A DNA stretch of 42,340 nt from a virus: positions 1-42,340 of IMG/VR virus record IMGVR_UViG_3300045110_000159; one strand, 5' to 3'. Made by a program: the position numbers and the translations under genes. The notes below the pieces were generated by a model. It searched no databases and had not been told where the DNA came from. It saw only the letters and a list, made by a program, of their open reading frames with translations. Shown here in pieces: positions 16,327 through 42,340 of this stretch. How positions within the stretch are numbered: the first letter of the stretch is position 1; the number at the start of each line of letters is the position of its first letter.

Positions 16327-18471
16327 ATGGCAGAGACAGCACCAGCACCGGCAGGCGCATCGACTGACGACATCATGCAGGCGATGGCGGAACTGCGCGC
16401 GCAAGTGATGCGCGCGCCGAATGTCGATAAGCGCACGGGCGCTGGATTGCTGGCGACGGCGGCGGTGGGGGCTGCGCCGACGCCAGAAGACGAGTTGAGC
16501 ACACTGCGGAAATACTACCCGGATGCGATGGCAATCGGGCAAGGCAACTACGTCTTCACGCATCCCGACACCAAGCAGCCGACTTTGTACAAGGCGACGG
16601 AGGGTGCCCATCCGCTGAACTGGGCCGCGCGAAACTTTCAGGAAGTTCCAGCCCTGATGGGCGGCACCATGGGGGCCATTGGCGGCGGCACGCTGGGCAG
16701 CATGGCCGGGCCGGCGGGCGGCATCGCTGGCGCCATAGGGGGTGCGGGTGTCGGCGGCACGGCGGGGCTGGAAGGCTACCGCGGCATGCTCGGCAAACTG
16801 CTTGGCACCGACGATACGCGCTCGCTTGGACAAGTCGCTACCGATGTAGGGGTGAACACGGTGCTTGGGTCGGCTGGCGAGCTTGTCGGCCGCGGGATAC
16901 CGGCTGCGGTGCGTGCCATCGCGCCTATCGTGGGCCGTGCGGAGCCGGGTGTGACGCGGGCGGCGGCAGACCTTGGCGTTGATCTTGGCGGCATGCCGGG
17001 GATGGTCACCGGGTCTACCGGGATCAACCGGACGATGGAGTTGTTGGGCACCAGTCCAACCGCTACGGGCCGGTTGGAAGCTGGTAAGCAGGCCACACGC
17101 GATTCGCTGACGGCAGCACAACAGCGGCTTGTGGGAGAGGTCGCTGGGGCGGGTTCGATACTGGGGCCGACGCGGGATACGGGCGAGGCGATGGAGAGGC
17201 TGCAAGCCGCGGCGCAGGGCAGCATCAACACCTATAACCGTACGCGACAGGCGATGGATATGGGCGTCGATGCGCTTGGCCAGGGGACCGTTGTGGTGCC
17301 GCATAACATCCAGAATGCGGTGACGCAGTTGCAGCGGAGTGTGGCGGAAGGGTCGCAAAATCTAGCGCCCACGGTCGCGGATGCGCTGGAATGGGGTCGC
17401 AACATCTTGGACCGTAGCCAGCAGAATGCGGCTATGGTGGGCCGGCCAGGCATCGATTTTTCGACTATGCGCAGCGAGCGCACGGCGTTGGGCGAAGCCA
17501 TCGATTTCAATCCGGTAACTGGGGCCAGACGGTCATCGTCAGCACAAAACGCCTTGACGACGATGTACAACGCGGCACGGCAAGACCTCCTGGATTCGGC
17601 GGGGCGGTCCAGCCCGGCCCTACAGCAAGCCCTGGCCGGACACGATGCGTTCGTGACCGCAGGGCGTGGGGGACAAGCGACGATGCGGCCCGGCGTTGGC
17701 GCCGGGCAGTACTTGACCGTCGATGAATTGGGCAAATTGGTTGAGAAAAATCCGTCCGACGCTTTCAATGCGATCACGCGAAATTCAATGAAATCGGGGC
17801 CTAATGGCGGCAACGGTGTCGAATTGATGCGGGCGCGCAATTCAGTTGACGACCAGACCTGGCGCGATTTTGCGGCGCATTATTTCGAAAGAATGTTCCA
17901 GCCCAACCCTGGCGTGGCCCAGACAGCCGGGCAGGTTGCGGGTACTGATCCGTTGAGCGGCATCGCTAATTTCTCGACCGCCTGGAACGGGTTGTCCGAT
18001 GGTGCCAAACGGGCATTATTCGATGGGTATCTGCCGCAGGAGACGCGCCAGAACCTTACCAGTCTGGCGACATTGGCGAACCAATATGTACGCGCCGGAT
18101 ACGCTGCGAACACTTCGCAAACGAGCAATTTGTTGATGGCGGGACGCCTGCTTATGGGGCCACTGACGGGGGCGGGCGTTGGTTTGGCATCGGGTGATCC
18201 GGGTGGTGCCGCTAAGGGCTTTGCGGTCGGGCTGACGCCGCTGGTGGCGGCGCCAATGGTCATGCGGCTGATGCAAAGCCCCGGGTTCACGCGCTGGCTG
18301 GCGAGTTCGGCCCGCGAGGTTGCGGCCAGTCCGAACCGCATCAGCACGACGCTGGGGCGGTTGGCGGCGATGCAATTCGACGCGCCAACCAAGCAGGCGG
18401 TGGATAAGTATATTCAGGCGGCACAGGCTAAAATAAGCGGCGCCAGCGCACCGGCAGGGGCAACACCATGA
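16327..18471 (+). CDS. Ejection protein C, large helical membrane-active protein
   Basis: This 714-aa protein follows ejection protein B directly (ATG next to its TAG). Residues about 108-150 form a Gly-zipper membrane segment (GGTMGAIGGGTLGSMAG and following GIAGAIGG). Residues about 600-660 are a second hydrophobic Gly/Ala region. Between them is a long helical region rich in Ala, Gln, Arg and Thr. Two membrane-active ends around a helical body fit the channel-forming ejection proteins of podoviruses (T7 gp16/P22 gp16 class by role; I see no sequence identity). Its stop overlaps the next ATG (ATGA at 18468). Confidence 0.72.
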   Translation: MAETAPAPAGASTDDIMQAMAELRAQVMRAPNVDKRTGAGLLATAAVGAAPTPEDELSTLRKYYPDAMAIGQGNYVFTHPDTKQPTLYKATEGAHPLNWAARNFQEVPALMGGTMGAIGGGTLGSMAGPAGGIAGAIGGAGVGGTAGLEGYRGMLGKLLGTDDTRSLGQVATDVGVNTVLGSAGELVGRGIPAAVRAIAPIVGRAEPGVTRAAADLGVDLGGMPGMVTGSTGINRTMELLGTSPTATGRLEAGKQATRDSLTAAQQRLVGEVAGAGSILGPTRDTGEAMERLQAAAQGSINTYNRTRQAMDMGVDALGQGTVVVPHNIQNAVTQLQRSVAEGSQNLAPTVADALEWGRNILDRSQQNAAMVGRPGIDFSTMRSERTALGEAIDFNPVTGARRSSSAQNALTTMYNAARQDLLDSAGRSSPALQQALAGHDAFVTAGRGGQATMRPGVGAGQYLTVDELGKLVEKNPSDAFNAITRNSMKSGPNGGNGVELMRARNSVDDQTWRDFAAHYFERMFQPNPGVAQTAGQVAGTDPLSGIANFSTAWNGLSDGAKRALFDGYLPQETRQNLTSLATLANQYVRAGYAANTSQTSNLLMAGRLLMGPLTGAGVGLASGDPGGAAKGFAVGLTPLVAAPMVMRLMQSPGFTRWLASSAREVAASPNRISTTLGRLAAMQFDAPTKQAVDKYIQAAQAKISGASAPAGATP

Positions 18472-19325
18472 CGATATGGAGCGACTACAAACCATTGCCG
18501 GCGGATAATGTCGCCGCCCCGCCGGTCGGTGCGCCGGAGGGCATGTGGCCCAGCGCCACCAACGATGTGCTCCGCGAAGTGATGAGCGTCATCAACCAGC
18601 TTGGCCAGCAAGTGACGGATACGTTCGCGGGCTTAGGCTCCATGGCCAACCAAAGCGCGGCCAATGTCAACATAACCGGCGGCACAATCAGCGGCGTCAC
18701 GATCTCCGGAAACGGTGGCGGTCTGACGAATTTGAACGCCTCTGCACTGGCCACCGGCACCGTGCCGGCCGCGCGCATGGCGGGCTACTACGACATCTCC
18801 GTGACCCAAGCGAATAACGCCAACACGGTGGGCGGCATCGCGCCTTCCAATATCGTTCCAGTTGGCACGATCACGGCTTGGTGGGGCAACCCGGCCTCGC
18901 TGCCTAGTAACTGGCATGTCTGCGACGGCACGGGCGGCACGCCTGATTTGCGTGACAAGTACCTGCGTGGTGTCGGCTCCGGCACGGGCTTCGGCAGTGC
19001 GTTCGGCTCCTATACCGGCAGCAGCGTTGCGGCGGGCAACCATAGCCACGGTGCAGCCACGGGGGCGCATACGCTGACGATTGCCGAGATGCCCAGTCAC
19101 ACGCATTCGACGCAGCAAGGTTGGGGCTACATGAACACCACCAGCCCCGCGGGCTACTTTGCTGGCACGGCTACGCTTACCGCGAACGGGCCGCTGGTGA
19201 TCGGTTCTACGGGTGGCGATCAGGCGCATACACATCCCATTGGCAATGATGGCACCCACAGCCACACCATCAACACCGACGCACCCCCGTCAGTCGGGGT
19301 GTACTGGATCATGCGGATGAGTTGA
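18468..19325 (+). CDS. Tail collar-domain receptor-binding protein
   Basis: This 285-aa protein is the last late gene. Residues 60-105 are a beta-helical shaft (ITGGTISGVTISGNGGGLTN, then ASALATGTVPAARM). Residues about 131-180 match the phage tail collar domain (PVGTITAWWG, LPSNWHVCDGTGGTPDLRDKYLRG). Four HxH pairs follow (residues 192-194, 211-213, and two near 255-266). In T4 gp12 such His pairs bind metal in the trimeric receptor-binding tip. The end SVGVYWIMRM is typical of this fold. It is probably a short tail fibre. The first attP-like repeat overlaps the last two bases after its stop codon. Confidence 0.85.
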   Translation: MTIWSDYKPLPADNVAAPPVGAPEGMWPSATNDVLREVMSVINQLGQQVTDTFAGLGSMANQSAANVNITGGTISGVTISGNGGGLTNLNASALATGTVPAARMAGYYDISVTQANNANTVGGIAPSNIVPVGTITAWWGNPASLPSNWHVCDGTGGTPDLRDKYLRGVGSGTGFGSAFGSYTGSSVAAGNHSHGAATGAHTLTIAEMPSHTHSTQQGWGYMNTTSPAGYFAGTATLTANGPLVIGSTGGDQAHTHPIGNDGTHSHTINTDAPPSVGVYWIMRMS

Positions 19326-19615
19326 TGCACCCTCGCTGCACCCTGTTTTCGCCGCGTGCGGTATCTGGATACCTGTCAAATACGACAAATTTGACAAGAC
19401 GTTTAATTTATGCCTTGAAATTCATCTTCGCTAAGCCATTGACGCGCAAGAAAAAAGCCAAAGATGTTTTTGACATCTTTGGCGTATGAGTTGGCCGCAC
19501 GACAACACCACCATCTGGGATATCAGCATTTTTTTAATTTAATTTGTTAGTGTTTTCAACGGCTTAAATGTTACGTATGCAGATGCACCCTCGATTTGCA
19601 CCCTATCTGCACCCT
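19326..19615. other. attP: Probable attP region: five TGCACCCT arm-type repeats around a candidate core
   Basis: TGCACCCT occurs in direct orientation at 19326, 19337, 19584, 19597 and 19608. Spacings of 11, 13 and 11 bp place the copies on about the same helix face. Between the two groups, TGTCAAAT (19374-19381) and ATTTGACA (19389-19396) are perfect inverted repeats separated by 7 bp, the layout of a tyrosine-recombinase core with a 7-bp overlap region. The integrase gene starts its 3' end just right of this region. Arm sites flanking a core next to int is the known architecture of phage attP. The exact core cannot be fixed without the host attB. Confidence 0.55.
19448..19483 (-). terminator. 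Intrinsic terminator downstream of integrase
   Basis: A perfect 10-bp stem (GCCAAAGATG at 19457-19466, CATCTTTGGC at 19474-19483) with a 7-base loop is followed, on the - strand, by a T-run (complement of AAGAAAAAA at 19448-19456). It ends leftward transcription from the integrase operon before it meets the late genes. On the + strand no T-run follows, so it should be one-directional. Confidence 0.85.
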
Positions 19616-19628
19616 AATTATATTTTTT

Positions 19629-20750
19629 TCAATCTCGGCCCCCTGAAATCAGGGTGCCCATCGCTGCCGCGATACCCTTCCCTGCACCCGGCAGACCCTT
19701 CAGATAGACGCCTGCCGTTACCCTTGGATTGCTATGCCCGGCCATGGCCGAGACGCCTCCCAAATCGCCGGTGATTTGCAACGCATGCGATATCATCGTG
19801 TGGCGCAGGAGATGCGGGTGCAGCTTGGCCACGCCGATCTCTTTCGCCTTGGTTTGCAGGTAGTGGCGCAGGCTGGACGGGTCTTGGATTTCGCCCTTGG
19901 CGTTCGGGAACACCAGCCGCTCCGGCCCCGGTTGCAGCCAGCGTTTCCACCGCCTGCGCAGCCGTTCCGCCGTCTCTACCGGCAAGGCGATCTCACGCCC
20001 GCTGCTCTTGGTCTTGGGCGCCCCCATGCGTGCGTCAACGCCGTAGCGGGCGTCGTGGGCCTGTTGGCGCACCGTGACCGATGGGTCCGGCCCATCGAAG
20101 CGTACGTCCTTCCATTCCAGCCCTAGCAACTCGGCCACCCGCATGCCGGTCGTTGCCAGCACATGCAGATGATCGGCCCAGTAGCTACCCTCGCTCAAAT
20201 CGAGCAAGTGCAGCAATTGCGCATGCGTCAGCGGCGTGCGCGGCGCCGAGACGCCTGCGGGCAGTGATATAGTCAGCAGCGGATTTTCTTTCAGCATCTT
20301 GCGCCGCAGGGCGATTTCAATCGGCTTGTTGAGCATCCGGAACACGCCCAAAATCGTGTTGGCGCCTGCGCCCTTCGCGGCCATGGTGTTTTTCAACCGT
20401 TGGAAATCGCCCCATTGCAGCCGATCAACCGGCGTGTCTTTCAGCACCGGGGCGACGTGATGGGCGATGCGGTCCATATAGGTGGCACGGGTGCGTGGTT
20501 TCAGCTTGTCGTTGGTGCGGTGAAAATCGCGGAGGTACTCGATAAAGGAGATATTGCCATTGACCGCAACCAGGCCAGGGTCGAAGGCGTGCGCCTGCTT
20601 GACCGCAGCCGCGACCGCTTCGTGTTCAGTCGGGCCGTGTCCATAAAAATCCTTGGGCTTGCCGCCCAAGCCGCCCACCCTTACCCGGGCCTGGAACCCG
20701 GCACCACGGGTCTTGATGACGGGCTTGCCGATCTTGCGCTCATGCGGCAT
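19629..20750 (-). CDS. int: Tyrosine integrase
   Basis: This 373-aa site-specific recombinase would catalyse integration and, with a helper, excision. The N-terminus (residues 1-60) is a basic arm-binding-type domain. Residues 66-160 form the SAM-like core-binding domain (FIEYLRDFHRTN, PRTRATYMDRI). The catalytic domain shows all expected residues: R204 in TTGMRVAELLGLEW, K246/K248 in PKTKSSGR, H313 and R316 in HPHLLRHT, H339 in GHSNPR and the nucleophile Y349. Length is normal. The start codon overlaps the end of the upstream gene by 11 bases, so the two are coupled. Repeats resembling arm sites and a terminator lie just downstream. Confidence 0.95.
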   Translation of the reverse strand: MPHERKIGKPVIKTRGAGFQARVRVGGLGGKPKDFYGHGPTEHEAVAAAVKQAHAFDPGLVAVNGNISFIEYLRDFHRTNDKLKPRTRATYMDRIAHHVAPVLKDTPVDRLQWGDFQRLKNTMAAKGAGANTILGVFRMLNKPIEIALRRKMLKENPLLTISLPAGVSAPRTPLTHAQLLHLLDLSEGSYWADHLHVLATTGMRVAELLGLEWKDVRFDGPDPSVTVRQQAHDARYGVDARMGAPKTKSSGREIALPVETAERLRRRWKRWLQPGPERLVFPNAKGEIQDPSSLRHYLQTKAKEIGVAKLHPHLLRHTMISHALQITGDLGGVSAMAGHSNPRVTAGVYLKGLPGAGKGIAAAMGTLISGGRD

Positions 20751-21246
20751 CGGTCATCTCCGGCTCGGCAGGCAGCGGGTACTTGCGTGGCCGTCCCCGG
20801 CGGCGGGGCATATCGTTCTTGCCGCTCAGCACGTCGGCCACGGCGGCGACGGTTTCGACGCGATTTTCGTCAATCGCCGCCAAAGCGTACAATGTCTCGA
20901 TTGATTTATGCGGCATGTCCTTATCATGTGCATCATCGACCAGATATCGCAGCGCCATGACCAGTCTAACCAGTGGCGGCATTTTCGGGTCGGAAGCATC
21001 GAGTGCGGATAGGGTGTTAATGGCCCGGTATATCTTTGTCATCGCCATACCGACGCGGGCGGCTTCGCCACCATCGTCATGCCCGAGACTGTCGATATGG
21101 AACCGCAGCACTTCACGTAGATGGGTGGAGAATTCCTGCCCATGCTGCGAGGCGTTCGCCTTCAATCGCGAGTATGTGATGCTATCCAGTTTGATCTGGT
21201 ATGTGTGGAAGTCTTTGTTGTGACTTTTTCGCAAGTTATCTGACAT
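20740..21246 (-). CDS. AT-hook protein with ribbon-helix-helix-like start, integrase partner
   Basis: This 168-aa protein lies directly upstream of int in the same operon. Residues 14-52 (YQIKLDSITYSRLKANASQ then EFSTHLREVLRFHI) look like a ribbon-helix-helix fold: one strand then two helices. Residues 60-145 are helical. Residues 147-156 (PRRRGRPRKY) form a classic AT-hook with the GRP core, which binds the minor groove of AT-rich DNA. The attP-like region has AT-rich stretches. I infer a DNA-bending or directionality role, or autoregulation; a copy of the AGGGTGCA sequence lies 52 bp upstream of its start. No family is recognised. Confidence 0.7.
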   Translation of the reverse strand: MSDNLRKSHNKDFHTYQIKLDSITYSRLKANASQHGQEFSTHLREVLRFHIDSLGHDDGGEAARVGMAMTKIYRAINTLSALDASDPKMPPLVRLVMALRYLVDDAHDKDMPHKSIETLYALAAIDENRVETVAAVADVLSGKNDMPRRRGRPRKYPLPAEPEMTDAA

Positions 21247-21565
21247 TGCTAAGCTGGTGCTTTTGGTCTGTTTGTTCAGGTTCGGTTAGGCGTGGCGAGG
21301 GTGCATCAAAAGCATTTAATTCCCTCACGCGAATTTGGTTTCAGGCGAACTCCTAGATAATTCGGCGAATCGTGTCGCGCACCGTTTATACAACGTGAAC
21401 GCATTTGACGAAAGCCCATATTTTTAGCTGCTGCATCTACCTATTTTTCGGCAGTACCACAGGCATTTTTCGTCGTTGACCAGCGTGGCGATTTAGTTAT
21501 GTTTTGGTTAACGACCTGCATATTCGTCGGCTTCGCCCTCCATACCAAAATCAGGGCCTAAGTTA
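21247..21565. promoter_or_regulatory. Divergent intergenic region between int operon and replication operon
   Basis: This 319-bp gap separates leftward integration genes from rightward replication genes. It is AT-richer than its surroundings. It holds one inverted copy of the attP arm sequence (AGGGTGCA, 21298-21305) near the int-operon side and a possible rightward promoter at 21476-21503. I found no convincing small gene or long palindrome in it. Confidence 0.6.
21476..21503 (+). promoter_or_regulatory. Possible sigma70-type promoter for the replication operon
   Basis: TTGACC at 21476-21481 and TATGTT at 21498-21503 are separated by 16 bp, close to the TTGACA/TATAAT consensus, and point at the gene starting at 21566. 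The -10 match is moderate. Confidence 0.4.
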
Positions 21566-21910
21566 GTGACATCGTTAAACAAACCCGTCCGCCCGCTGTA
21601 CTGCGAGGCGGTATTGGAGTACCGCAGTCTTTTTACCTCTGCGCGCAAGGCAGCCCAGTATGTCGGGCTGTCCCATCAAACAATTCTGGCCCGTGCCAAG
21701 GCGGGCAAAATACCGGGTGTCGTAACAGAAGGTAACAGGGTTTTAATTCCATGGCGGTGGGTGCAATTCCGCGCCATCAACGTTGAACGCAGCCTGCGCG
21801 GGCTGGTGCCGTTGGAATGGAAGGACGTGACTATTGCCAGCACGCCGGAGCAGTTGAAGGCGCTGGCGACGGGCGAGACGGACGACAACCTGCCGACCTG
21901 GGCGTGCTGA
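21566..21910 (+). CDS. Helix-turn-helix DNA-binding protein (excisionase/MerR-like fold)
   Basis: This 114-aa protein begins the rightward operon. Residues 25-66 (TSARKAAQYVGLSHQTILARAKAGKIPGVV, then RVLIPWRWV) fit the winged-helix HTH_17/excisionase-type fold: two helices followed by a hairpin ending in a Trp. Such proteins act as excisionases or as transcription regulators. Either is possible here: it is the first gene opposite the integrase operon, a usual place for a control protein. The start GTG 21566 is the best available; no clear ribosome site precedes it, so the true start could be a few codons away. Confidence 0.7.
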   Translation: MTSLNKPVRPLYCEAVLEYRSLFTSARKAAQYVGLSHQTILARAKAGKIPGVVTEGNRVLIPWRWVQFRAINVERSLRGLVPLEWKDVTIASTPEQLKALATGETDDNLPTWAC

Positions 21911-32028: not shown

Positions 32029-32271
32029 CTACGCCGCCTGCTTCTGCGGTACCGCAAGCCCTACCGCCTCACGTTGCCGATCAGACAATGCCTTGTCGGG
32101 CCAGCCATAGGTATCGATGTAGGCTGTGAGAATAGCGACCTGCTTCGGCACGCGCCGCCGCCTTCCGCTCCAATTGTAAATCGATTGATACCCCACGCCC
32201 AACAAGCGTGCGGCTTCGACCGGCCCCATGTGGTGCTTGTCCAGCCACGCCTTGAATTCTTCGCTTTTCAT
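32029..32271 (-). CDS. XRE/Cro-like transcription regulator
   Basis: This 80-aa protein is a compact helix-turn-helix regulator. Residues 4-50 (FKAWLDKHHMGPVEAARLLGVGYQSIYNWSGRRRRVPKQVAILTAYID) match the Cro/XRE pattern: GPVEAARLLGV forms helices 2 and the turn, YQSIYNWS the recognition helix. A Gln/Ala-rich tail follows. Its ATG overlaps the methyltransferase stop (ATGA on the - strand), so the two genes form one operon. Four AAAGCATGYTTT palindromes nearby are its likely targets. It could be the lysogeny repressor, a Cro-like protein, or an R-M-style controller for the methyltransferase; I cannot decide. Confidence 0.82.
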   Translation of the reverse strand: MKSEEFKAWLDKHHMGPVEAARLLGVGYQSIYNWSGRRRRVPKQVAILTAYIDTYGWPDKALSDRQREAVGLAVPQKQAA

Positions 32272-33149
32272 CGTTTCGTTTCCAATAAAGCATGTTTTTC
32301 CACGATTGCCCTGCCGATAAGTTCAGCGATCTGGGGCACGATGGCGTTGCCGAGCGCGATCAGGCGCCGGCGGCGTTCCGGCATCCCCTTGGCTACCGTC
32401 CGCGGCGTGCCCTGCTCCCAGTACTCAGCGGGGCGTTCACTTTGGTCCAGCCCTTCGGGTAGCCCATCAGCAATTCTACCCATTCCGGGTTCAGAACGGT
32501 TCCATGCGCCATCGAGCCATGATGCACTTCGCGTCCGAGCAAGGCGTTCGAGGGCACGTTGCGACAGGATCGGCTGTCGCCATCCTTCCAGTCGCGTGTC
32601 GTCGGCGTGGGCCACGATCCATATGCGGTCCCTCCGGTGAGGAGCGCCAATGGCGGAAGCGGGAATACAATGCCATTCCGCATCATAGCCGAGCGCAGCG
32701 AGTGCCCCGAGCACCTGGTCCAGTCCGCGAGCGCGAAGGGCCGGGACGTTTTCGATGACGACCCATTGCGGCGCGACTTGCCGAACGATGCGGAGCATGT
32801 CGCGCCATAAACCGCTGCGTGGCCCATCGATGCCGGCGTTGCGTCCGGCCACGGATATGTCCTGACACGGGAAGCCACCGCACACCACATCGATGCCACT
32901 TCGGACATCGAGTGTCTTAACATCATCATGGCATGGCACTCCCGGCCAATGTTTCGCCAGCACGGCGCGTGCGTATGGGTCGATTTCGCAGAAGCCCACC
33001 GTTTGCATTCCCGCACGTTCGAAGCCCAGCGAGAAGCCTCCGATGCCGCTGAACAGATCAAGCACGCGCAAGGGCCGGGCAAGCAGGCTGTCAAACACCT
33101 GGCTAACGTCCAGCCGCATACGTTCAAGCAAGGCGTGTGCGTGATCCAT
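32268..33149 (-). CDS. DNA (cytosine-5) methyltransferase, orphan
   Basis: This 293-aa protein carries the C5-methyltransferase motifs in order: I LDLFSGIGGFSLGF (30-43), IV GGFPCQDIS with catalytic C95, VI IENVPAL (E133), VIII PHRRDRIWIV (R172-R175) and X ALGNAIVP (265-272). The target-recognition part between about 185 and 255 is short. No cognate endonuclease gene is seen, so it is an orphan, presumably protecting phage DNA from host restriction or marking DNA. The ATG at 33149 has AGGAGG upstream. A palindrome sits 15 bases further upstream. It is first in an operon with the XRE regulator. Target sequence is unknown. Confidence 0.93.
   Translation of the reverse strand: MDHAHALLERMRLDVSQVFDSLLARPLRVLDLFSGIGGFSLGFERAGMQTVGFCEIDPYARAVLAKHWPGVPCHDDVKTLDVRSGIDVVCGGFPCQDISVAGRNAGIDGPRSGLWRDMLRIVRQVAPQWVVIENVPALRARGLDQVLGALAALGYDAEWHCIPASAIGAPHRRDRIWIVAHADDTRLEGWRQPILSQRALERLARTRSASWLDGAWNRSEPGMGRIADGLPEGLDQSERPAEYWEQGTPRTVAKGMPERRRRLIALGNAIVPQIAELIGRAIVEKHALLETKR
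32287..32298. promoter_or_regulatory. Operator-like palindrome 3 (AAAGCATGTTTT, imperfect)
   Basis: Differs from the 12-bp palindrome by one base, C to T. It lies 16 bp upstream of the regulator's start codon, inside the 3' end of the methyltransferase gene, where the regulator could act on itself. Confidence 0.5.
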
Positions 33150-35508: not shown

Positions 35509-35681
<173 letters not shown>

Positions 35682-39378: not shown

Positions 39379-41919
39379 ATGGACAGTCCGTGGTCTTCGC
39401 CTCCGCCGTCCACCCCGCGCAAACCGCGCAAGATGTCTGCCGAAACGTTCCAGCGCGTGTTCAACCGCATGGTCGATCAGGCCGTCATGTTCCGCGACGG
39501 CTACCTGTCCGCTGATCGCGTCAAGCAATGGCGCTACTACAACGGCCAGGTAGACTCTACGCCGCGCAGGGGTCGAAGCTCCGTCGTTGCAACCGAAGTG
39601 GCCGACACCTGCGATGCCGCCCATGCGCAACTTCTCCGTGTCTTCGGCAACCCGCGCGGACTTGTGCAGTTCGTGCCTAGCACCGGAGCGGCGCAACAGC
39701 AGGCCGACACCGCCACCTCCTACATCTACCATCTGTTCTTCACGCAGAACCCGGGCTGGACCAACCTTTCCTCGTTCCTCTTGGACGCCTTAGTCGCGGA
39801 CGTAGGCATCTTCTTCCATCGTGCCGAGCCAAGCGAGCATGTCGAAGAAGAATTCTACATGGGCCTGACCGAAGACGAGTGCGATGCCTTAGCCGCTGAT
39901 CGTGACGTAACGATACTCAGCCGTGAAGAAGATACTGAAATGCTCAGCGACGTGCTGGGCAATCCCCTCGCCCCGGAAGACCCTGATGATAGCACGGACG
40001 ATGACGAATCGCAAGGGGAAGGGCTTCCACTTGCCGGAAGGTTGTCGCTTGCAGCGGCGCAAGGGGGCATGAACCCTGCCGCGATGAATGGGGCCGCAGT
40101 GGGAGTCCTGCCCCCTGCGGCTGGGCCGGCAGGCCCGGCGCCGCGCCTTGACGGCGCTCCATCTCCTATGGGTGGGCCACCGGGCATGAACGGGATGCCG
40201 CCGGGGCAGCCGCCCACGCCGCAACCTCCACCGCCTCCGCCGCCCCCTGCGCCTGCGCTATCTGAACCCCCGCCCCCACCGCCGCAATCGACCTACTCCA
40301 TTCGCCTCCTGCGGCGTAGCCAGGCGGTCAAGATCAAGGTCGATACCGTCAGCCCCGATGAATTCTTGATCGATGGCAGCGCCGAGAAAGTCTCCGAATG
40401 CAAGATCATGGCGGTCTACAGCGACCGCACCGTGGGCGACCTGACCGCGGCGGGCTTCAAGTGGCGCGATGTCGTCAAGCATGCCGCCCCGATGGGCCTG
40501 ACCGCGGAGCAGATGGCCCGCCAGCCCAAGCGCCAAGACACGTCCTTTTCTCAGTCCTCTGAAGACGCGACTACCTGGCCGATCCGCGTCATCGATGCCG
40601 CCGTGCGGATGGACGCTGACGGCGATGGCGTGCCTGAGATGTACCGCGTCGTGGCGGTGGGCAACGACTATGAAGTGCTGGAACGTGAGCGCATCGCGGA
40701 CTGGCCGTTCACGATTGGTTCCCCGTATATAATTCCGCATTCCCCCATCGGTGCGGGCCTGGCGCGAAAAGTCGTGGATTTGCAGGACCAGCAATCTTCG
40801 ATCATGCGTCAGCAGCTTGATTCTCTTTACGCTGCGGTCAATCCAAGATTTACGGCGGTTGAATCAGCCGTCAATCTTGACGATGCGACCGACGATGCGT
40901 TCGGACGAATTATACGGATTAGGCAGCCGAATGCGTTCATGCCGCTGAACGTCGAATTCGTCGGTGCGCAAGCATTTCCGATGATTGACAGATTAGACAA
41001 AATCCGCGAGTTCCGCACCGGCATCTCCCCCCAATCCGCCGGGCTTGATCCGAAGGCCCTGCAATCCAGCACCGAAACCGGCGTCAAAGAGATCGTTGAC
41101 GCCAGGACCATCCGCCTAGAGGCCGTTGCGCGAACGCTTGCGGAGACCGCGATTGCGCCGATGTTCAGCGCCCTGCTCAAACTCGCCGTGCGCTACCAAG
41201 ACCGGCAGATGCAAATCCATACCTCCGGCGGCTTCCTTTCGGTTGACCCGCAATCTTTCGACCCATCAATGGAATGTATCGCTATCGTCGGGCTTGGAAA
41301 TGGAACGGACCCGGAACGGTTGCAAGCCCTTGGCGCCGTCAAGAATACGCAAGAAATGGTTATGATGAAGCTGGGGCCTGCAAATCCGCTTAGCGGCATG
41401 CAGGAATACCGCAACACGCTGTCCGACCTGATCGCGCTGACCCCATACCGGCAAGTGGAGCGGTATTTTAAGCCGTTGCCCCCAAATATCGACCAGATCA
41501 TGCAACAACAGCAGCAAGCTCAGCAGCAAGCGGCGCAACAAGCCGCCCCTGGTGCCCCACAAGGCTCGCCGCAAACGGATGCCGCCAAGGCGCAGGCGAC
41601 GATGCAGAAGGCGCAGGCCGACATCCAGGTGCAACAGGCCAAGTTGCAGGCGGATGCGCAGGAAAGCCAGCAACGCATGCAGATGGAAGCGGCCCAGCAC
41701 GCGCAGGACATGCAGTTCCAGCAATGGAAAGCGCAGAAAGAGATGGAACTGGAGAAGCTGAAGGCGCTGATGCAGGTCGAGTTGCAACGCATGAAGCTCC
41801 AGGCCGACACCGCGGTCGATATGCACGAACTGCAAGCGGAAACGGCTTTGCGTGCCATCGATATCAAGCGTGGCATCAGCAAGTCGCCCAACATCGAGAA
41901 CCCTGATGCGGAGCACTGA
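39379..41919 (+). CDS. Portal protein with low-complexity insertion
   Basis: This 846-aa protein forms the twelve-fold DNA gate. Residues 20-190 and 305-690 fit SU10/P22-type portals (VKQWRYYNGQV, RSSVVATEVADTCDAAHAQLLRVF, later PHSPIGAGLARKVVDLQDQ, then LDDATDDAFGRIIRIRQPNAF). Residues about 194-305 are an unusual insert: an acidic stretch (PEDPDDSTDDDESQ) followed by Met/Gly/Pro-rich sequence with runs of eight and six Pro. Residues about 705-830 are Gln/Ala-rich and helical, probably the C-terminal barrel that extends into the head. It starts directly after the terminase stop. Above-average length is due to the insert and barrel. Confidence 0.9.
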   Translation: MDSPWSSPPPSTPRKPRKMSAETFQRVFNRMVDQAVMFRDGYLSADRVKQWRYYNGQVDSTPRRGRSSVVATEVADTCDAAHAQLLRVFGNPRGLVQFVPSTGAAQQQADTATSYIYHLFFTQNPGWTNLSSFLLDALVADVGIFFHRAEPSEHVEEEFYMGLTEDECDALAADRDVTILSREEDTEMLSDVLGNPLAPEDPDDSTDDDESQGEGLPLAGRLSLAAAQGGMNPAAMNGAAVGVLPPAAGPAGPAPRLDGAPSPMGGPPGMNGMPPGQPPTPQPPPPPPPPAPALSEPPPPPPQSTYSIRLLRRSQAVKIKVDTVSPDEFLIDGSAEKVSECKIMAVYSDRTVGDLTAAGFKWRDVVKHAAPMGLTAEQMARQPKRQDTSFSQSSEDATTWPIRVIDAAVRMDADGDGVPEMYRVVAVGNDYEVLERERIADWPFTIGSPYIIPHSPIGAGLARKVVDLQDQQSSIMRQQLDSLYAAVNPRFTAVESAVNLDDATDDAFGRIIRIRQPNAFMPLNVEFVGAQAFPMIDRLDKIREFRTGISPQSAGLDPKALQSSTETGVKEIVDARTIRLEAVARTLAETAIAPMFSALLKLAVRYQDRQMQIHTSGGFLSVDPQSFDPSMECIAIVGLGNGTDPERLQALGAVKNTQEMVMMKLGPANPLSGMQEYRNTLSDLIALTPYRQVERYFKPLPPNIDQIMQQQQQAQQQAAQQAAPGAPQGSPQTDAAKAQATMQKAQADIQVQQAKLQADAQESQQRMQMEAAQHAQDMQFQQWKAQKEMELEKLKALMQVELQRMKLQADTAVDMHELQAETALRAIDIKRGISKSPNIENPDAEH

Positions 41920-42205: not shown

Positions 42206-42340
42206 ATGTCTGAAACTGTCAAAACGTCCGACACGCCTGCGGAAGCGGGCACCGGGCCACTGACGATGGCAGAGGCGGTTGCCACCCTGCTGAAAGAGAG
42301 ATCGGACCCCGCTCCGGCACCCTCTCCTTCCGCCGAGAAA
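42206..42340 (+). CDS. Capsid scaffolding protein, 5' part
   Basis: ATG 42206 starts the scaffold gene that continues at base 2 on the circular molecule (codon 3 spans the joint). The upstream TTAGG is a weak ribosome site. The first 20 residues (SETVKTSDTPAEAGTGPLT) are missing if the gene is called from the internal ATG at 53. Confidence 0.88.
   Translation, partial: MSETVKTSDTPAEAGTGPLTMAEAVATLLKERSDPAPAPSPSAEK
42214..42340. repeat. 127-bp terminal direct repeat, right copy
   Basis: Identical to bases 1-127; one copy should be removed when the molecule is circularised. Confidence 0.95.

Follow-up and report, generated by a model that had tools for sequence, protein, structure and literature searches.

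A putative phage attachment site with split direct-repeat arms next to a divergent tyrosine integrase gene

Introduction

The integrase of phage lambda binds both arm and core sites in an attP that has arms on both sides and a 7-bp overlap (PMC4880445). Putative direct-repeat arms have been described in mycobacteriophages. In phage Pixie (Cluster K3), the attP next to a tyrosine integrase gene has five putative arm sites in direct orientation, two on one flank of the core and three on the opposite one; a sixth is inverted, and the 47-bp core overlaps a host tRNA gene. In phage CrimD, a putative terminator separates core and arms, and putative arm words vary even among close integrases (PMC3203893).

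The locus described here lies in a single virus record of IMG/VR (IMGVR_UViG_3300045110_000159), all 42,340 bp of which were analyzed and are referred to below as the window. It resembles the Pixie site in having putative direct arms in a 2+3 order beside a tyrosine integrase gene, the likeness being one of arrangement, and differs from it in lacking the sixth, inverted site and a tRNA core. Like lambda, it combines a tyrosine integrase predicted to be heterobivalent, for which lambda Int is a structural match, with putative arms on both sides. However, the two integrases are only about 16% identical, lambda's set of IHF, Xis and Fis sites was not recognized here, and the footprint is 290 bp, compared with 240 bp in lambda. 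The lambda arm word differs from TGCACCCT, the word repeated here. In the PDB, Tn1549 Int (6emy/6emz) of the Tn916/Tn1549 family is the closest match by both sequence and structure. The integrases of this family come from conjugative transposons, in which target choice is less strict, whereas the window is a phage whose portal and capsid are of the SU10 type. Measured against an attP of the lambda or Tn916 type, the R-K-H-R-H-Y integrase, the predicted N-terminal domain and the two-sided repeats are all present. The putative attP is ordinary in kind, and nothing about it falls outside known integration systems.

The phage genome and its integrase gene

The first and last 127 bp of the record (1-127 and 42214-42340) form a perfect direct terminal repeat, indicating that the phage genome is complete, at about 42.2 kb, and was probably assembled as a circle; the attP should therefore be intact. 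The genome encodes terminase, a family-A polymerase, a primase-helicase and an exonuclease, with polymerase and primase at 26-31 kb, away from the gap next to the integrase gene (int). The genes needed for orientation are:

1061-2035: SU10-type major capsid protein
19629-20750, - strand: tyrosine integrase, 373 aa (Pfam PF00589, E=3.7e-17; PHROG 1)
20740-21246, - strand: 168-aa protein with a weak ribbon-helix-helix (RelB-like) match, overlapping the int start and probably co-transcribed with int
21566-21910, + strand: candidate recombination directionality factor, excisionase-like HTH protein, first gene of the divergent rightward operon
39379-41919: SU10-type portal

A tail gene (18468-19325) and the int stop codon enclose a gap of 303 bp (19326-19628), which lies directly 3' of int and is AT-rich, with 41.6% GC compared with about 61% around it and in the window. 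Phage relatives recognized by portal or polymerase (L002, L003 and L110) do not extend into this region. A 55-aa ORF on the + strand (19322-19489) overlaps the tail-gene stop and spans both inverted repeats described below. It was considered as the 3' end of a host gene carried in attP and rejected for want of a convincing homologue.

Alignments identified the complete catalytic set of the integrase (R204, K246, H313, R316, H339 and Y349). Among 41 sequences, R204, H313, R316 and Y349 are invariant, and K246 and H339 are at least 90% conserved. Together with the Pfam match, this bears out the original prediction that the repeats adjoin a tyrosine integrase gene. An AlphaFold2 model built on 41 relatives (pLDDT 89.7) has a separate N-terminal domain (residues 11-56) ahead of the core-binding and catalytic domains. 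The predicted domain comprises strands 11-15, 18-25 and 33-39 and helix 42-56, and this three-strand-plus-helix fold is predicted to be arm-binding-like. In Foldseek, the top match was Tn1549 Int, followed by full-length lambda Int, in agreement with sequence profiles. Integrases that bind arm as well as core sites have this domain plan, as described for lambda (PMC4880445). The relatives of the integrase are distant (about 25% identity), and no close relative was found in IMG/VR, GTDB genomes, phages, plasmids or a further 398 + 9 genomes.

The 168-aa protein encoded next to int matched NF048017 with E=0.003, below the cut-off, and its structure model was too poor to use. A role as operon regulator or accessory factor is possible. 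The 21566-21910 protein matched TIGR01764 'excise' (E=1e-4, score 22.6, below the cut-off of 28.8) and HTH_17 (E=0.0013); it is the best candidate for a directionality factor. The two genes are separated by 319 bp.

A split array of direct repeats

The window contains six exact copies of TGCACCCT. Five are located inside the gap, all on the + strand, with the stop codon of the tail gene immediately preceding copy 1:

19326-19333, + strand: putative arm-type site, int-distal pair, copy 1 (TGCACCCT), exact match
19337-19344, + strand: putative arm-type site, int-distal pair, copy 2, exact, 11 bp from copy 1
19584-19591, + strand: putative arm-type site, int-proximal cluster, copy 3, exact match
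19597-19604, + strand: putative arm-type site, int-proximal cluster, copy 4, exact match
19608-19615, + strand: putative arm-type site, int-proximal cluster, copy 5, exact match
21298-21305, - strand: sixth TGCACCCT, in the 319-bp gap upstream of the 20740-21246/int gene pair

The five direct repeats in 2+3 order that had been predicted are thus all present on one strand, and repeated putative arm-type sites flank the presumptive core region on both sides. Helical-turn spacing holds only approximately. The start-to-start distances of 11, 13 and 11 bp correspond to 1.05, 1.24 and 1.05 turns.

The array is far beyond chance. Among 20,000 random sequences, generated by a first-order Markov model with the composition and length of the region, not one contained a non-low-complexity 8-mer with as many as four copies divided by a gap of more than 100 bp, whereas the region has five. 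Low-complexity words were left out of this comparison because a dinucleotide shuffle had given some 8-mers with five copies, probably A/T homopolymers.

The sixth TGCACCCT has 15 bp in common with copy 1 (TTGATGCACCCTCGC). It may allow the integrase or the 168-aa protein to control the int operon, or it may be there by chance. Integrase autoregulation is known for KplE1 (PMC2951348).

In IMG/VR, triplets of TGCACCCT were found in 21 contigs, mostly as simple tandem repeats, and in none of these was the triplet immediately beside an integrase gene as it is here. Three unrelated viral contigs, L093 (2275), L095 (430) and L109 (2322), have tandem or split TGCACCCT arrays near primase/helicase-type genes, which suggests another factor reading the same word.

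The same layout beside related integrases

As a control, we scanned 80 loci of related integrases, all distant (about 25% identity), without using the repeat word of the window. The layout was defined as a same-strand 9-mer occurring as a pair 9-14 bp apart, with another copy 120-320 bp away. Of the 35 regions directly 3' of int, 5 had this layout; none of the 76 regions on the 5' side and none of 678 control windows did. The layout had first been seen in a looser scan of the same loci and the criterion was tightened afterwards; the contrast of the 3' regions with upstream and control DNA is nevertheless clean. The other 30 of the 35 downstream regions were without such an exact-word layout, and some of them are likely to be integrated prophages or to have degenerate arms.

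In five IMG/VR loci (L010, L041, L042, L077 and L087), direct-repeat pairs 10-12 bp apart were present on both sides, or a pair on one side and a single copy on the other, in arrays that span about 240-290 bp directly 3' of int. An 8-mer scan recovered complete 2+2 sets, for example GTGTCAAC in L041 at 36 and 47 / 275 and 286 after the int stop and TGTCGTCA in L010 at 60 and 71 / 278 and 290. Read in the same way, the window has AGGGTGCA, the reverse complement of TGCACCCT, at 13, 24 and 37 / 284 and 295. A layout common to regions 3' of related integrases and absent from control DNA supports the reading of the repeats as arm sites.

Each of the five loci has its own arm word, unlike TGCACCCT. 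With every integrase having its own word, an unfamiliar one is to be expected and is not remarkable, and the unfamiliarity mentioned in the original prediction carries little weight. A partial tRNA, as expected for a core, lies between the arms in L010, L042 and L087 (in L087 it was read from the sequence by its T-arm motif), whereas an Rfam scan of the gap in the window found no tRNA or tmRNA fragment.

Elements between the arms

The DNA between the two arm sets contains the following elements:

19360-19373: palindrome GGTATCTGGATACC, adjoining IR1, read from the sequence
19374-19396: inverted repeat IR1, TGTCAAAT-ACGACAA-ATTTGACA, exact, 8-bp arms and 7-bp spacer, the earlier core candidate
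19457-19483: inverted repeat IR2, GCCAAAGATG-TTTTTGA-CATCTTTGGC, 10-bp arms and 7-bp spacer, alternative core candidate and candidate terminator hairpin in the int direction
19554-19566, + strand: weak IHF-like site TTTCAACGGCTTA with one mismatch, between IR2 and the int-proximal arms; 22 such sites occur in the window

The perfect inverted repeat with a 7-bp spacer that had been predicted is present as IR1. IR2 is longer and had gone unmentioned, as had the palindrome GGTATCTGGATACC. There are two candidates for inverted half-sites around an overlap of 6-8 bp, both with a 7-bp spacer. At least one 8-bp inverted repeat with a spacer of 6-8 bp was present in 373 of 20,000 random sequences, and at this chance rate of about 2%, IR1 alone is weak evidence. 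IR2 folds strongly, with an RNA fold z-score of -3.9 on the - strand, and a T run follows it when read in the direction of int; IR2 probably ends the int transcript. As for DNA bending between arms and core, the spacer is AT-rich and holds the single IHF-like site at 19554.

Searches for an integrated form

A comparison of attL and attR of prophages in host genomes had been proposed as a check. It was carried out and found no prophage, attB or attL/attR in any collection or in the bacterial genomes screened, a point against the predicted attP. When the core region was used to search for attB by BLAST, in 398 genomes of Pseudomonadota and 369 genomes at class level, the matches inspected were in unrelated genes or at chance level, and searches of phages and plasmids with the att region returned chance-level matches only. 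Exact searches of IMG/VR with IR1 and IR2 were without matches. IR1 with up to two mismatches was found in 0 of 696 genomes; with three mismatches there were three matches, all inside ordinary genes, and these were rejected. With no host found either, the negative results for attB and prophage weigh little.

Proposed mechanism and alternative explanations

We regard the gap at 19326-19628 as a putative attP of an uncultured temperate phage on which the integrase encoded at 19629-20750 acts, with a probability of roughly 0.8. The original prediction of an attP with arm repeats gains support from the adjacent integrase gene, the arm-binding-like N-terminal domain and the recurrence of the layout 3' of related integrases. 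The integrase would be a two-headed tyrosine recombinase, whose small N-terminal domain would bind the TGCACCCT repeats, two distal and three int-proximal, while the catalytic domain would cleave at a pair of inverted half-sites that lie between the arm sets with about 7 bp separating them. By bending, the intervening AT-rich DNA would enable a single integrase to contact an arm and a core site at the same time. Crossover into the host chromosome would fall within 19345-19583, and the arm geometry favours a position near 19470 (IR2) over IR1. IR2 would probably also terminate the int transcript, and excision would probably be directed by the excisionase-like protein encoded at 21566-21910.

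The position of the core was judged from distances. The anticodon loop is the usual crossover for tRNA-targeting integrases, and it was taken as the core position in L010, L042 and L087. On this basis, the core is 90-133 bp away from the proximal arms in these three, and 110-132 bp away from the distal ones. IR2 is similarly central, at 114 bp from the proximal and 126 bp from the distal arms, whereas IR1 is off-centre, at 199 and 41 bp, respectively. The spacing in the relatives, three comparisons only, fits IR2 and argues against IR1, and the original choice of IR1 as core is not upheld, since both of its distances fall outside 90-133 bp. From this analysis, a core near IR2 appears the best single candidate, at slightly under even odds. 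It is doubtful that crossover instead takes place in the same attP at IR1, with the 8-bp arms of this perfect repeat as core-type sites, ACGACAA as overlap and IR2 as terminator only. That arrangement would parallel CrimD, where a terminator between core and arms is known (PMC3203893), and L042 and L087, which have hairpins flanking the tRNA core on its int side; IR2 could indeed be just such a terminator. Besides its eccentric position, however, IR1 is a repeat of a kind that one random region in fifty contains, and it recurred in the genomes searched only with three mismatches and within ordinary genes. A core elsewhere in 19345-19583 takes up the rest of the probability. An unlikely variant is that the IR2 terminator hairpin itself (10-bp arms, 7-bp loop) forms the core and the phage integrates into the terminator of a host gene.

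Two further explanations would assign the repeats to another protein. The sixth TGCACCCT, located outside the region, counts against an attP in that it may be a sign that a regulator reads the word. The repeats would then be targets of a regulator or directionality factor of the phage, for instance the RHH-like 20740-21246 protein, and not of the integrase arm domain, in the manner of Cox-type proteins that are both regulator and excisionase, and the sixth copy, with its 15-bp match, does lie just upstream of the gene for this protein. Nevertheless, one extra exact 8-mer copy is about the chance expectation in 42 kb, the RHH assignment is weak, and the repeats flank the core region on both sides with the spacing of the putative arm sites beside related integrases, so that we consider a regulator as the binder quite improbable. 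It is more improbable still that the repeats are replication iterons and the gap a replication origin. The local drop in GC content would suit an origin, as would the TGCACCCT triplets in unrelated viral contigs, some of them near primase/helicase genes. Against this, the replication genes lie elsewhere (26-31 kb), the neighbours are a tail gene and the integrase gene with no initiator gene adjacent, and most of the arrays in those contigs consist of coding repeats or of tandem repeats without a break, unlike a split array beside an integrase gene; it is the split layout that recurs 3' of integrases.

Implications and further observations

The putative attP offers a testable site for a phage that is temperate, rare and uncultured and that has an SU10-type portal and a divergent integrase; the site could become an integration tool for the host once the host is known. 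On the unlikely variant with the IR2 hairpin itself as core, a functional terminator would be part of the attP, where a tRNA anticodon stem-loop is usual. More generally, arm arrays of direct repeats are recognizable 3' of related integrases even when no host sequence is at hand, and the spacing of the arm sets suggests the position of the core. The partial tRNAs make attB predictable for the phages of L010, L042 and L087.

Two observations concern other parts of the genome. A DNA cytosine methyltransferase gene (32268-33149, - strand, PHROG 363) lies on the strand opposite to most genes, and its nearest matches among plasmid records are from Shinella and Ca. Megaera. A short tandem array of TCAATCAA, with the 4-bp unit TCAA, is located at 35651-35680.
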